Source: Nitrospirota bacterium (GTDB lineage: Bacteria; Nitrospirota; Thermodesulfovibrionia; UBA6902; JAJYJJ01). Taken from it: a stretch of DNA of 64,000 nucleotides. This document shows, in pieces, positions 20,027-23,127 of the stretch. The DNA is taken from contig JAJYJJ010000005.1 in assembly GCA_021789595.1 (NCBI GenBank), forward strand, positions 62,001-126,000, read 5' to 3'. Position 1 is the stretch's first letter, and each line of letters starts with the position of its first letter. The notes beneath the pieces were generated by a model. That model ran no database searches and had not been told where the DNA came from. It saw nothing but the letters and a program-made list of their open reading frames with translations. The translations under genes and the position numbers were made by a program.

Positions 20027-20311
20027 ATGCAAGCAAATGAGTTTATTTTTACCGGTATTATCTTTAAAGATGACGAACGATATACATCTCTCTGTCCTGA
20101 ACTTGATGTGGCATCAGAAGGTGATACACCTGATGAGGCGTCAAAAAATTTATTAGAAGCTGTTGCACTTTATCTTGAAACAGCAATTGAAGCAAATCTT
20201 CCATATCTTCGCCCTATCCCATCTGATGAAGACCCAAGAATAATAGACCCTGAATCCATCATAAAAACTTTTAATCTAAAGGTAGATTTTCAAATAAAGG
20301 CTTATGCCTGA
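20027..20311 (+). CDS. hicB: HicB-family antitoxin
   Basis: 94 residues with the partial RNase H-like fold of HicB antitoxins: FTGIIFKDDERYTSLCPELDVASEGDTPDEASKNLLEAV. No C-terminal ribbon-helix-helix is evident, so DNA binding is not assured. It overlaps the toxin gene by 8 nt. A weak -10-like GATACT lies just upstream, giving a short or absent leader. The antitoxin-first order is common for this family. Confidence 0.85.
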   Translation: MQANEFIFTGIIFKDDERYTSLCPELDVASEGDTPDEASKNLLEAVALYLETAIEANLPYLRPIPSDEDPRIIDPESIIKTFNLKVDFQIKAYA

Positions 20312-20522
20312 ACTTCCTGCTGTAAAACCGCATGAAATTGTCAGGGTTTTAGAAGGTCTTGGTTTTTATAAAGTCCGCCAAAAGGGGAGCCATCTTCAAA
20401 TGAAGCGAGGCAATCTTTTGGTAACAATACCCATTCATTCTGGAGATTTAAATCCAGGCACATTAAGGTCTATTCTCCGTCAGGCTAAGTTAAGCATTGA
20501 TGAGTTTTTAAGTCTATTATAG
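20304..20522 (+). CDS. hicA: HicA-family mRNA interferase toxin
   Basis: 72 residues with a dsRBD-like fold. VRVLEGLGFYKVRQKGSHLQM contains the catalytic His in GSH, followed by VTIPIHSGDLNPGTLRSILRQA. This is a standard HicA, which cleaves mRNA and is neutralised by HicB. Its stop is 6 nt before a duplicated porin 3' fragment, showing the pair sits in a rearranged porin locus. Confidence 0.9.
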   Translation: MPELPAVKPHEIVRVLEGLGFYKVRQKGSHLQMKRGNLLVTIPIHSGDLNPGTLRSILRQAKLSIDEFLSLL

Positions 20523-20528
20523 ATTACA

Positions 20529-20578
20529 GACAATGCCTATGAAGTAAGGCACGGAATCCAGCTCACCTTCTAAATTAA
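20529..20578 (+). pseudogene. Relic of a porin 3' end (second copy)
   Basis: 50 nt repeat 19858-19907 with three differences. They include the last 14 codons and stop of the porin (NAY, VRHGIQLTF). Two of the three differences are synonymous and one changes Ala to Glu, suggesting the copy comes from a paralogue that was once under selection. The stop of the convergent L,D-transpeptidase lies inside it. Confidence 0.75.
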
Positions 20579-21525
20579 TCCCCTCTTGCCCCCCTGTGTG
20601 AAATAGCCTCTTTATGATCTGATAAAGGCGCATTGAGGGTTATCTCCTCTGCGGTACCATCCTTTTTCTTGATAACATCTGCAACCCTGTCCCAGTCAAC
20701 CCTGTCACTGAGCCCGTTTGCCTCAACGATATCCCTCACAATCCTCCGTTGGTCCTGCCCCTTATGATAAAAATCTCTATAGACCTCAAGGAATATCCTT
20801 CCATCAGCAGTCCTGGCAACCTTGACTGTCTGGTATATAAGCCTGCCTTCTGTCCCAACAGGTACAATGTCAAAGAGGCTTTTTGCATTGTCTGGCAAAA
20901 GCCTTATACAGCCGTGGCTCCTGAATTGATATATACTGTTTGGCAGTATTGTTGCATGCAGGCCAACACCCTTTATCGAAAGACCTAACCAGTATTTTCC
21001 AAGGGGGTTGTCAGGCCCGGGCGGCACAATGGTCTTTATATCCTCACCTTTTTTCACCATCTCATCCTGTATAGATATGGGGACAACCCATGTAGGGTCC
21101 TTTATCTTCTTCACAACCTCGAAGGATACGGCTGACGGCGTCTGCCATTCAGGCTTTATCATCCCAAGACCAACAGGATAGTAGGCAATCAATCTGCCGT
21201 TTTCAAAATAATAAAGGCTCCTGTCAGGTATGTTTATCAGAATACCGTTATCAATACCTGATGGGATTATCTTGCTTTTAACAATCCTTAGTTCCTCACC
21301 TTTTCTGAGCCTTGCATCTATCTTGAGATGATTAAGAGCCGCTATCTGCCTCCAGTCAACCCCAAACCTGGCTCCAACAAGCTGAAGCGAATCCCCTTTT
21401 TCGGCTCTGTAGAGAAGGTCCTGCTGGATAACATCCTTATAAAGCATAGTCTGTGAATCTGCAGCCATACATGCATCTACAGACACAGGAAGGAGAAGAA
21501 AAAGCCATATAAGATTCACTCGCAA
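20575..21525 (-). CDS. L,D-transpeptidase with LysM domain
   Basis: 316 residues from a TTG start at 21525, 7 nt after AAGGAG. A longer frame from 21597 would include an intrinsic terminator, so it is rejected. A hydrophobic signal (about 4-16) is followed by a LysM-like peptidoglycan-binding segment (about 36-82) and a YkuD catalytic domain with SHGCIRL, giving His204 and Cys206. It forms 3-3 cross-links or attaches lipoproteins to peptidoglycan in the periplasm. The C-terminal tail reads into the duplicated porin tail, so its last residues may be non-native. Confidence 0.92.
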   Translation of the reverse strand: MRVNLIWLFLLLPVSVDACMAADSQTMLYKDVIQQDLLYRAEKGDSLQLVGARFGVDWRQIAALNHLKIDARLRKGEELRIVKSKIIPSGIDNGILINIPDRSLYYFENGRLIAYYPVGLGMIKPEWQTPSAVSFEVVKKIKDPTWVVPISIQDEMVKKGEDIKTIVPPGPDNPLGKYWLGLSIKGVGLHATILPNSIYQFRSHGCIRLLPDNAKSLFDIVPVGTEGRLIYQTVKVARTADGRIFLEVYRDFYHKGQDQRRIVRDIVEANGLSDRVDWDRVADVIKKKDGTAEEITLNAPLSDHKEAISHRGARGD

Positions 21526-21552
21526 GGTAATGCTCCTTAAACAATCAGATAT

Positions 21553-21587
21553 AAAAAAAGGCCCCAGGGTTTTCTCCGGGGCCTTTT
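21553..21587 (-). terminator. Intrinsic terminator after the Cys-rich peptide gene
   Basis: Stem GGCCCC/GGGGCC extended by AAAA/TTTT and two inner GC pairs. On the minus strand it is followed by seven T residues. It starts 3 nt after the peptide stop codon and separates that unit from the L,D-transpeptidase. Confidence 0.85.
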
Positions 21588-21590
21588 GCC

Positions 21591-21653
21591 TTAACAAGAG
21601 CCTTTACATTTACAGGTTGTTGCCGTCCTTTTTGAGAGCTTCTTGATTGTCAT
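21591..21653 (-). CDS. 20-residue Cys-rich peptide, candidate RiPP precursor
   Basis: ATG at 21653, TAA at 21591, with an AGGGGGTGA ribosome site 5 nt upstream. The peptide has a basic N-terminal part (MTIKKLSKRTATT) and a C-terminal core with the pattern C-K-C-K-G-S-C. It lies 41 nt downstream of a radical SAM/SPASM enzyme gene on the same strand and is closed by a strong terminator. This fits a ribosomally made peptide modified by the neighbouring enzyme, for example by thioether formation at the cysteines. It is too short for ordinary gene callers. The peptide is read directly; its modification is inferred. Confidence 0.7.
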   Translation of the reverse strand: MTIKKLSKRTATTCKCKGSC

Positions 21654-21694
21654 AGGCTCACCCCCTTTCTCAGGGCACAGACCCTTCATGGGCA

Positions 21695-22861
21695 TTATGG
21701 TTTTATTATATCATATGCATAACATTTAATCGAATCCCTGCCAAGCGGGTCGCCATCTATATATGCCCTGAACCTGCAGCCACCCCTGCAATCTGCTTTA
21801 TGTATACAATCACATTCAAGCTCATCGAGTTTAATCGGCCTTAACCTCTTCCAGCAGACCTCAAGCCCATCCTCTGCCGTACCAAGCGGCATATCGCCAA
21901 AATAGCCGCATTTTGCCAACCTCCCATCGGCCAGCACAGCCATAAGATGGGCGCCGCAGGCATAGAGGACCGGGTTATCCCCATCCAGCTCATCAGGGTC
22001 GCTATGGAGACTGCTGCCAAAACCATAGCTGAGGTATCTGCCTGCAATATCAGGCGGAGGATTAAACTCGGTATTCTCCCTCAGGTTTCCCTGCATACAG
22101 AGGGCATCAACACTCCAATCCTTTATCCCGAGTCTCCTGAACATCTCATCCATGGCGTCGAAATCATCGAGGTTCCTGGAATGGATGATTGTGGCAACCG
22201 ATACTTCTATCCCCATAGCAAGTGCATCTATGAGGGCAGACATTGCCTTTTTAAAAGAACCTTTCCCCCTCAAGGAATCATGGGCATGCTCCATGCCATC
22301 AATACTGATCTGTATCTCATTAACCCTGAGTCTTTTTAACGACTCCCTTGTAAGAAGGGTCCCATTGGTCAGAAGGACGCTTCTGAGGGCAAGGCCCGGG
22401 AGCATCTCATTAATCTCCCAGAATCCTGGATGCAGAATGGCCTCTCCACCTGAAATCAGGACCCTGAGCCCCTGCATGGCCTCAAATTCCTTCAAGACCT
22501 GCTTTATCGTATGCAGGGGCAGGTCTATGGCCTTTGCATCGCCGAGATAGCAGTGACTGCATCTGAGGTTGCATCGGTTTGTTATCAATAATTCAAGGTA
22601 TCTCAGCGAGGGAGTTGGCGATTGTCTTAAGGGGGCTGTAAGCAGCTCAGGCCTTTCTGAAATGGCAAGGATGCCTTCATTAATGCAGTATTCTATGAAT
22701 TCCTTTTCTCCTTCACGAACATCTGCTTCGCCGCGGGAGCATTGCAAAAGGAATTCAAAGGCAGCATCATCAAGTTTATAAAGCTCATCAGTTCTTATAT
22801 CGTAGAGACAGGGCCTTCCCAGGAGTTTCAAGACACATCCATTTCTCAGGGAATATTTCAT
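21695..22861 (-). CDS. Radical SAM/SPASM peptide-maturase-like protein
   Basis: 388 residues. The N-terminal 70 or so (NGCVLKLLGRPCLYDIRTDELYKLDDAAFEFL) resemble a PqqD/RRE-type peptide-recognition winged helix. The radical SAM cluster motif is C97-x3-C101-x2-C104 in TNRCNLRCSHCYLGD, with ISGGE and LTNGTLL downstream. The C-terminal SPASM region has Cys302, 318, 350, 352, 358, 362 and 380, enough for auxiliary [4Fe-4S] clusters. This layout is that of enzymes that modify short peptides (SCIFF, geopeptide and similar systems). Which named family it belongs to cannot be decided here. Confidence 0.85.
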   Translation of the reverse strand: MKYSLRNGCVLKLLGRPCLYDIRTDELYKLDDAAFEFLLQCSRGEADVREGEKEFIEYCINEGILAISERPELLTAPLRQSPTPSLRYLELLITNRCNLRCSHCYLGDAKAIDLPLHTIKQVLKEFEAMQGLRVLISGGEAILHPGFWEINEMLPGLALRSVLLTNGTLLTRESLKRLRVNEIQISIDGMEHAHDSLRGKGSFKKAMSALIDALAMGIEVSVATIIHSRNLDDFDAMDEMFRRLGIKDWSVDALCMQGNLRENTEFNPPPDIAGRYLSYGFGSSLHSDPDELDGDNPVLYACGAHLMAVLADGRLAKCGYFGDMPLGTAEDGLEVCWKRLRPIKLDELECDCIHKADCRGGCRFRAYIDGDPLGRDSIKCYAYDIIKP

Positions 22862-23041: not shown

Positions 23042-23127
23042 TGGCGGAGGGGGTAGGATTCGAACCCACGGGACTTTCGCCCTGCGGTTTTCAAGACCGC
23101 CGCCATCGACCACTCGGCCACCCCTCC
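23042..23127 (-). tRNA. tRNA-Ser (anticodon UGA)
   Basis: 86-nt cloverleaf on the minus strand. The acceptor stem is GGAGGGG with CCCCTCC, the D arm has GCCGAGTGGTC, the anticodon loop is CTTGAAA with TGA, and there is a long serine-type variable arm (GCAGGGCGAAAGTCCCGT). The T arm is GGGTTCGAATCC, the discriminator is G, and the 3' CCA is encoded. A TATAAT (23143-23138) lies 10 nt upstream. Confidence 0.96.

Follow-up and report, generated by a model that had tools for sequence, protein, structure and literature searches.

Several described systems pair a radical SAM/SPASM enzyme with a small peptide. In the SCIFF system, a small cysteine-rich precursor (CteA), with six cysteines in about 45 residues, is served by a single, widely conserved radical SAM/SPASM maturase (CteB) that carries an N-terminal RRE. 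The SCIFF models are TIGR03973/TIGR03974. GeoRSP, mycofactocin, and PqqA/PqqE are likewise built from a radical SAM/SPASM enzyme and a small peptide, and the sactipeptide maturases SkfB and AlbA (subtilosin) have the same RRE-SAM-SPASM layout. Other cysteine-containing ribosomal peptides, the bufferins and methanobactins, are tied to copper homeostasis. Bufferins depend on MNIO (DUF692) enzymes and a DUF2063-RRE partner for their synthesis; they have Sec signals and work in the periplasm (PMC12452194).

The locus described here combines a 20-codon gene with the gene of a radical SAM/SPASM enzyme in a Nitrospirota genome, within a stretch of 64,000 nucleotides (the window). Judged by analogy, the pair is most like SCIFF/CteB in anatomy (PMC8326336) and most like the MNIO-made bufferins in apparent role (PMC12452194), and is a member of neither. 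In contrast to SCIFF, the candidate precursor has three cysteines in 19–22 residues, the lineages are different, and second precursor copies lie in metal operons. In contrast to bufferins, the candidate maturase is a radical SAM enzyme rather than an MNIO enzyme, and a precursor of about 20 residues leaves no room for a signal peptide; the tie to copper comes from operon location and concerns the copies with His or Tyr after the CKC (H/Y-type). Compared with SkfB and AlbA, the toxin and immunity context is absent, and the precursor sequence differs from those of GeoRSP, mycofactocin, and PqqA.

We assign a probability of about 0.83 to the reading that the locus represents a new radical SAM RiPP family, in which one maturase would serve several precursors and at least one branch would take part in copper handling. 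The pair is best read as belonging among the radical SAM RiPPs, with a very short precursor, a single trans-acting maturase, a spread over bacteria and archaea, and copper-linked paralogues as its unusual features. To our knowledge, the precursor is among the shortest known. The pair would add a RiPP to lineages with few described ones, namely Nitrospirota, Desulfobacterota, Archaeoglobi, and Methanoperedens.

The radical SAM enzyme and the 20-codon gene

The enzyme (388 residues) is encoded on the reverse strand at 21695–22861 of the window, and the candidate precursor gene lies downstream on the same strand at 21591–21653, across a gap of 41 nt. The product of the 20-codon gene, read directly from the sequence, is MTIKKLSKRTATTCKCKGSC, with the core CKCKGSC. 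The region 5′ of its ATG (21654–21675, reverse strand) reads GAGAAAGGGGGTGAGCCT and contains the ribosome site GAGAAAGGGGGTG. An intrinsic terminator (21556–21587, reverse strand) with a 12-bp stem, an 8-nt loop, and a T tail starts 3 nt past the stop codon and has a folding energy of −21 kcal/mol (z = −2.3). The gene, ribosome site, core, and terminator reported in the first-pass annotation are thus all present by sequence reading and folding. A 20-codon gene is too short for the usual gene callers, and the peptide has no family match in NCBIfam or Pfam.

Rfam models detect tRNA alone near the locus; a tRNA-Ser(TGA) gene precedes the enzyme gene on the reverse strand (23042–23127). Directly 3′ of the peptide terminator is a gene for a LysM and YkuD L,D-transpeptidase protein (20575–21528, reverse strand), which is probably unrelated. 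Farther on, at 20027–20522 of the forward strand, a HicA toxin gene (Pfam, 2.2e-19) follows a weak HicB-like antitoxin, an ordinary toxin–antitoxin pair.

The enzyme matches the Pfam Radical_SAM model (1.7e-19), and the codons of its CxxxCxxC motif (C97-N-L-R-C101-S-H-C104; 22550–22573, reverse strand) are invariant in ten orthologues. In a Pfam scan at E up to 1, Radical_SAM is the one confident match and the SPASM and PqqD models are not reached. Therefore, the SPASM and PqqD-like assignments are based on the arrangement of cysteines and on structure prediction. The seven-cysteine motif of SPASM domains is Cx9-15Gx4C...Cx2Cx5Cx3C...C. In accordance, seven C-terminal cysteines are invariant in the ten orthologues and occur in SPASM order (C302-x10-G313-x4-C318, C350-x-C352-x5-C358-x3-C362, and C380), which bears out the cysteine-rich SPASM region proposed earlier. 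The second spacing, C350–C352, varies from x1 to x4 and is x1 in the window enzyme.

The AlphaFold model of the whole enzyme has a pLDDT of 84, and its nearest folds in Foldseek are SkfB, CteB (5why), and SuiB, all of them RiPP maturases; SkfB is the best match among solved structures in both fold and sequence. Residues 1–86 (22604–22861, reverse strand), modelled alone, also reach a pLDDT of 84. Their top Foldseek matches are lasso-peptide B1 RREs with leader peptides (5v1v, E 4.7e-3, probability 1.00; 6jx3, 5.8e-3), followed by SuiB, the PbtF RRE, and CteB, with no match below E 0.001. The model supports a RiPP recognition element fold for the N-terminus, which would bind a leader. The PqqD-like N-terminus read from the letters is thus upheld by fold comparison, though not by a Pfam PqqD match, and the radical SAM core, SPASM cysteines, and RRE fold together agree with the peptide-maturase architecture that had been suggested.

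The closest folds, SkfB and CteB, are a sactipeptide and a ranthipeptide maturase, and the pair could accordingly be imagined to make a secreted antimicrobial or signalling peptide of these classes. We consider this very improbable. Genes for immunity, export, or proteolysis do not recur in the neighbourhood, the peptide is unusually conserved across phyla and domains for an antibacterial peptide, and copies of it occur in copper operons.

Named maturase models do not cover the enzyme. Among 82 weak NCBIfam matches, the best scores 91 bits against a cut-off of 400. When the best 25 matches per protein are listed for the window enzyme and its orthologues, all ten orthologues match the same families as the window enzyme and no listed match reaches its curated cut-off. 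In particular, the window enzyme falls below the models for SkfB (62.6 bits; cut-off 300), AlbA (65.9; 850), StsB (70.1; 625), GeoRSP (65; 400), the mycofactocin maturase (82.2; 265), and PqqE (50.9; 381). Membership in the SCIFF or ranthipeptide class is rejected in the same way: the peptide has three cysteines in 20 residues, and among the matches listed there is no SCIFF model and none above cut-off. In addition, we find no description of the enzyme–peptide pair in the open-licence literature, an absence that is weak evidence. The first-pass suggestion that the pair could be undescribed is consistent with both results.

Conservation and co-occurrence of the two genes

The peptide motif M-x-I-K/R-K...C-K-C-x-x-S-C is kept from Nitrospirota to Archaeoglobi. 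In 40 sequences, M1, C14, K15, C16, S19, and C20 are invariant, and I3 and K5 are nearly so. The peptides are 19–22 residues long with three cysteines, the last at or one residue before the C-terminus. The cysteine pattern CxCx3C read from the window is conserved and can be refined to CKCxxSC. In 689 kb of sequence, each of the 16 DNA-level matches to CKCxxSC followed by a stop codon belongs to the family, and a Shine-Dalgarno-like site precedes 78 of 83 family copies. A search with the shorter pattern CKCxxC gives about 0.5 chance matches per genome and serves as background only. Among 62 close pairs, pS is 0.52 and pN 0.095 per site, indicating strong purifying selection; with the Cys codons left out, the values are 0.51 and 0.115. 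A lack of cysteine conservation, which would have spoken against the gene, is not seen.

With its three Cys codons close to the stop and a terminator 3 nt beyond it, the window frame could also be the cysteine-sensing leader of a transcription attenuator. The frame is, however, under nearly equal selection outside the Cys codons, Lys15 and Ser19 are invariant, and the window frame ends its transcription unit at the terminator. Copies follow the enzyme rather than cysteine genes, occur in archaea, and are placed upstream, downstream, or far from the enzyme. We reject the attenuator on selection and position, and regard its chance of being correct as almost negligible.

The two genes are found in the same genomes. 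A true enzyme orthologue (E < 1e-100) is present in 10 of 61 relatives, the others having only distant radical SAM proteins, and a profile built from seven peptides matches exactly those 10, in five of them far from the enzyme. A scan of public genomes with the single enzyme protein gives no match; an alignment-based scan yields 42 family members with a sharp score drop below them. Their hosts include Nitrospirota, Desulfobacterota ('Deltaproteobacteria'), Actinomycetota, and one Rokubacterium, together with archaea such as Archaeoglobus, Geoglobus, Methanoperedens, and Hydrothermarchaeum. Most of the 42 have a peptide frame within a few hundred bases, downstream of the enzyme in Nitrospirota and Actinomycetota and upstream in most Desulfobacterota and archaea. 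The expected position 30–60 nt downstream with a terminator thus holds in the window (41 nt) but is not universal, upstream and unlinked positions being common. In a genome-wide search, 36 of 40 enzyme-carrying genomes contain the peptide, which is every one of the 36 non-Asgard genomes. The four Asgard genomes have a divergent enzyme (31–35% identity) and no CKCxxSC peptide in the same search, so the substrate of the Asgard enzymes, if any, must differ.

Across three samples (516 genomes), 96 genomes have both genes, 417 have neither, and 3 are discordant; in two of the three the enzyme is truncated at a contig end, and one has the peptide alone. The Nitrospirota sample (198 genomes) contributes 67 with both, 1 with the enzyme only (a contig-end fragment), 1 with the peptide only, and 129 with neither (Fisher 7e-51), and the Desulfobacterota sample (198 genomes) contributes 23 with both, 1 with an enzyme only (truncated at a contig end), and 174 with neither. 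In the Archaeoglobus phylum (120 genomes), 6 have both and none is discordant, counting full-length enzymes and leaving out two weak partial matches (E about 1e-37). The motif-bearing 20-codon frame is therefore present in 96 of 98 enzyme-bearing genomes, and homologous enzymes that consistently lack it, the finding that would have told against the pair, are not observed. Its length and C-terminal cysteine pattern are conserved with the enzyme across Nitrospirota, Desulfobacterota, Actinomycetota, and archaea. This co-occurrence and the purifying selection rule out a chance frame.

At least six Nitrospirota families hold genomes with and without the pair, and in these both genes agree, indicating repeated joint gain or loss of the pair. 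The genes lie apart in 23 of the 67 Nitrospirota genomes; linkage alone therefore does not explain the agreement. At L066, L067, L112, and L121, in relatives, enzyme and peptide both lie at a locus with genes for a TPR protein, ispE, and prs. At L101, L103, and L104, the peptide gene keeps its order before the same three genes and the enzyme has moved elsewhere. We considered these genes as functional partners of the copies with Lys after the CKC (K-type) and rejected them, since they look like conserved gene order.

Nearly all genomes have a single enzyme. This enzyme must then serve all copies of the peptide, including those in copper operons. The peptide is very probably the substrate of the radical SAM/SPASM enzyme, a view drawn from sequence comparison. 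The pairing proposed in the first-pass annotation now has the co-occurrence (96 of 98), the conservation, and the RRE fold on its side, while chemical modification is something that we still infer. In the proposed mechanism, the N-terminal RRE would bind the basic N-terminal half of the roughly 20-residue precursor (M-x-I-K/R-K-V-x-K-K), and SAM radical chemistry would modify the C-terminal core C-K-C-x-x-S-C. The single enzyme normally present in a genome would act, in cis and in trans, on the products of one to three precursor genes. As a guess, the acceptor sites could be the invariant Lys between the first two Cys and the invariant Ser that precedes the third; the modification may be a thioether, a C–C crosslink, or another type. 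A comparison of neighbourhoods shows no dedicated peptidase or exporter gene that recurs with the pair. If one enzyme acts on unlinked precursors, as we infer, mining based on gene neighbourhoods would miss most of the family.

The ancient distribution, the single enzyme per genome, and the frequent lack of linkage (23 of 67 in Nitrospirota) would suit a cofactor better than a secondary metabolite, and the radical SAM core weakly resembles the mycofactocin and PQQ maturases. The peptide could thus be the precursor of a small redox cofactor that the enzyme first crosslinks and that unlinked enzymes release or finish. However, the entire CKCxxSC C-terminus is conserved rather than merely two residues, H/Y- and K-type paralogues with separate genomic associations would be odd for a cofactor precursor, and no peptidase or oxidoreductase neighbour is shared. 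We consider a cofactor unlikely.

Peptide copies in copper-export operons

We sort 83 peptide copies by sequence, using the residue after CKC, and by position relative to the enzyme. K-type copies (CKCKxSC) usually lie beside the enzyme, and H/Y-type copies (CKC[HY]xSC) are often inside copper-export operons. The operon copies are an addition to the first-pass annotation, which covers the window copy. A heavy-metal P-type ATPase gene is found within 6 kb, mostly within 2.3 kb, of 17 of the 23 unlinked H/Y-type copies and of none of the 21 other unlinked copies (p = 1.6e-7); since the operon copies are partly orthologous, 17 of 23 overstates their independence. Among enzyme-linked copies of other than H/Y-type, the figure is 1 of 35. 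In nearly all of the adjacent ATPases, the sixth membrane helix contains CPC or CPH, and YHS, HMBD, or HMA domains are present in many. The gene directly 3′ of an operon peptide often encodes a secreted protein with 15–23% Met or a YHS protein, and these operons also include genes for a multicopper oxidase and an OEP-type outer-membrane efflux protein. Taken together, these genes identify copper-export operons. The ATPase contexts number about five: CPC with YHS/HMBD, CPC with two HMA domains, CPH with a Met-rich protein, a MerR-regulated cluster, and that of the archaeon Geoglobus.

The window's genome has two further peptide copies, MSIKKVSKKKALSCKCHQSC and MKIKRVIKKKALTCKCYSSC. These have the cores CKCHQSC (L062 9905–9967; G000 C28) and CKCYSSC (L063 9694–9756; G000 C1), and each lies beside a copper-type P-type ATPase gene and a gene for a secreted YHS protein. 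The CKCYSSC copy is also near a CbiM-type cobalt/nickel ECF transporter. The copper-operon location holds only for the H/Y-type and not for the K-type copy of the window, which has no metal-gene neighbour; the unlinked K-type copies likewise show no metal-gene link (0 of 21).

Six of the 23 unlinked H-type copies have no ATPase gene within 6 kb. One of the six, close to a contig end, has a Met-rich protein after it, one adjoins a HypE-like (AIRS-domain) gene, and two, from Hydrothermarchaeum, have cytochrome c assembly and thioredoxin-like genes nearby. These two (L217 6081–6149 and 9517–9585) lie on either side of thioredoxin-like genes and a gene for a CcmF-like protein of cytochrome c assembly; a third H-type copy in Hydrothermarchaeum adjoins the enzyme. 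The four archaeal enzyme-linked H-type entries also have no ATPase gene within 6 kb.

A peptide with CxCxxxC and a His beside copper ATPases is chemically sufficient for Cu(I) binding, and a second small Cys-rich protein accompanies many enzymes. The peptide might thus be an unmodified tiny metal chaperone or scaffold, with the enzyme acting otherwise in the pathway, on another protein or using the peptide as a carrier. Against this, the enzyme has an RRE fold, that of a domain which serves to bind precursor leaders, and the presence of the peptide follows that of the enzyme nearly one to one, also where the genes are unlinked. An unmodified chaperone would also be expected in enzyme-free genomes, and the peptide is in 1 of 418 of them. 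We therefore regard the unmodified chaperone as improbable and retain the radical SAM RiPP family as the preferred reading.

The close tie between a tiny peptide and its enzyme, together with the copies in copper operons, points to an undescribed family of putatively enzyme-modified, metal-handling peptides. We envisage a short thiol or thioether peptide as the product, with a soft-metal site to which His or Tyr would add a ligand in the copper-operon version. For the H/Y-type at least, we favour on balance a thiolate peptide whose role would be to bind or buffer a soft metal, Cu(I) or another, on behalf of the ATPase encoded next to it. A more specific version, to which we give slightly less than even odds, is that of cross-domain radical SAM metallopeptides: one maturase per genome may complete both a CKCKxSC peptide with a housekeeping role and, acting in trans, a CKC[HY]xSC peptide, the latter handing Cu(I) over to the adjacent P1B ATPase or buffering it for this ATPase. 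The variation between K-type and H/Y-type cores suggests both substrate and function. It would follow that these organisms need a radical SAM enzyme from another genomic locus in order to tolerate copper. If so, lineages that are largely anaerobic would have a radical SAM analogue of the copper RiPPs made by MNIO enzymes.

A small ECGAY-type protein

A protein of 45–80 residues with the pattern C-x2-C-x-F-Y...E-C-G-A-Y is encoded beside the enzyme in archaea, Actinomycetota, and some Deltaproteobacteria (L108, L111, L125, L132–L136, L138–L142, and L144–L146). It belongs to no Pfam family. Of the four Asgard genomes (L137, L141, L145, and L146), three carry a small protein of this type. In Nitrospirota, a doubled form of the pattern is mostly unlinked to the enzyme (L295 5589–5960, L299 5893–6204, L301, and L302). 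By weaker matches, the doubled form is present in 8 of 10 enzyme-bearing relatives, including the window's genome, and in none of 4 enzyme-free relatives. In so small a sample (10 and 4 relatives), the ECGAY-type protein is no more than a possible third component of the system. At L299 and L302, its gene directly follows that of CutA1 (divalent ion tolerance).
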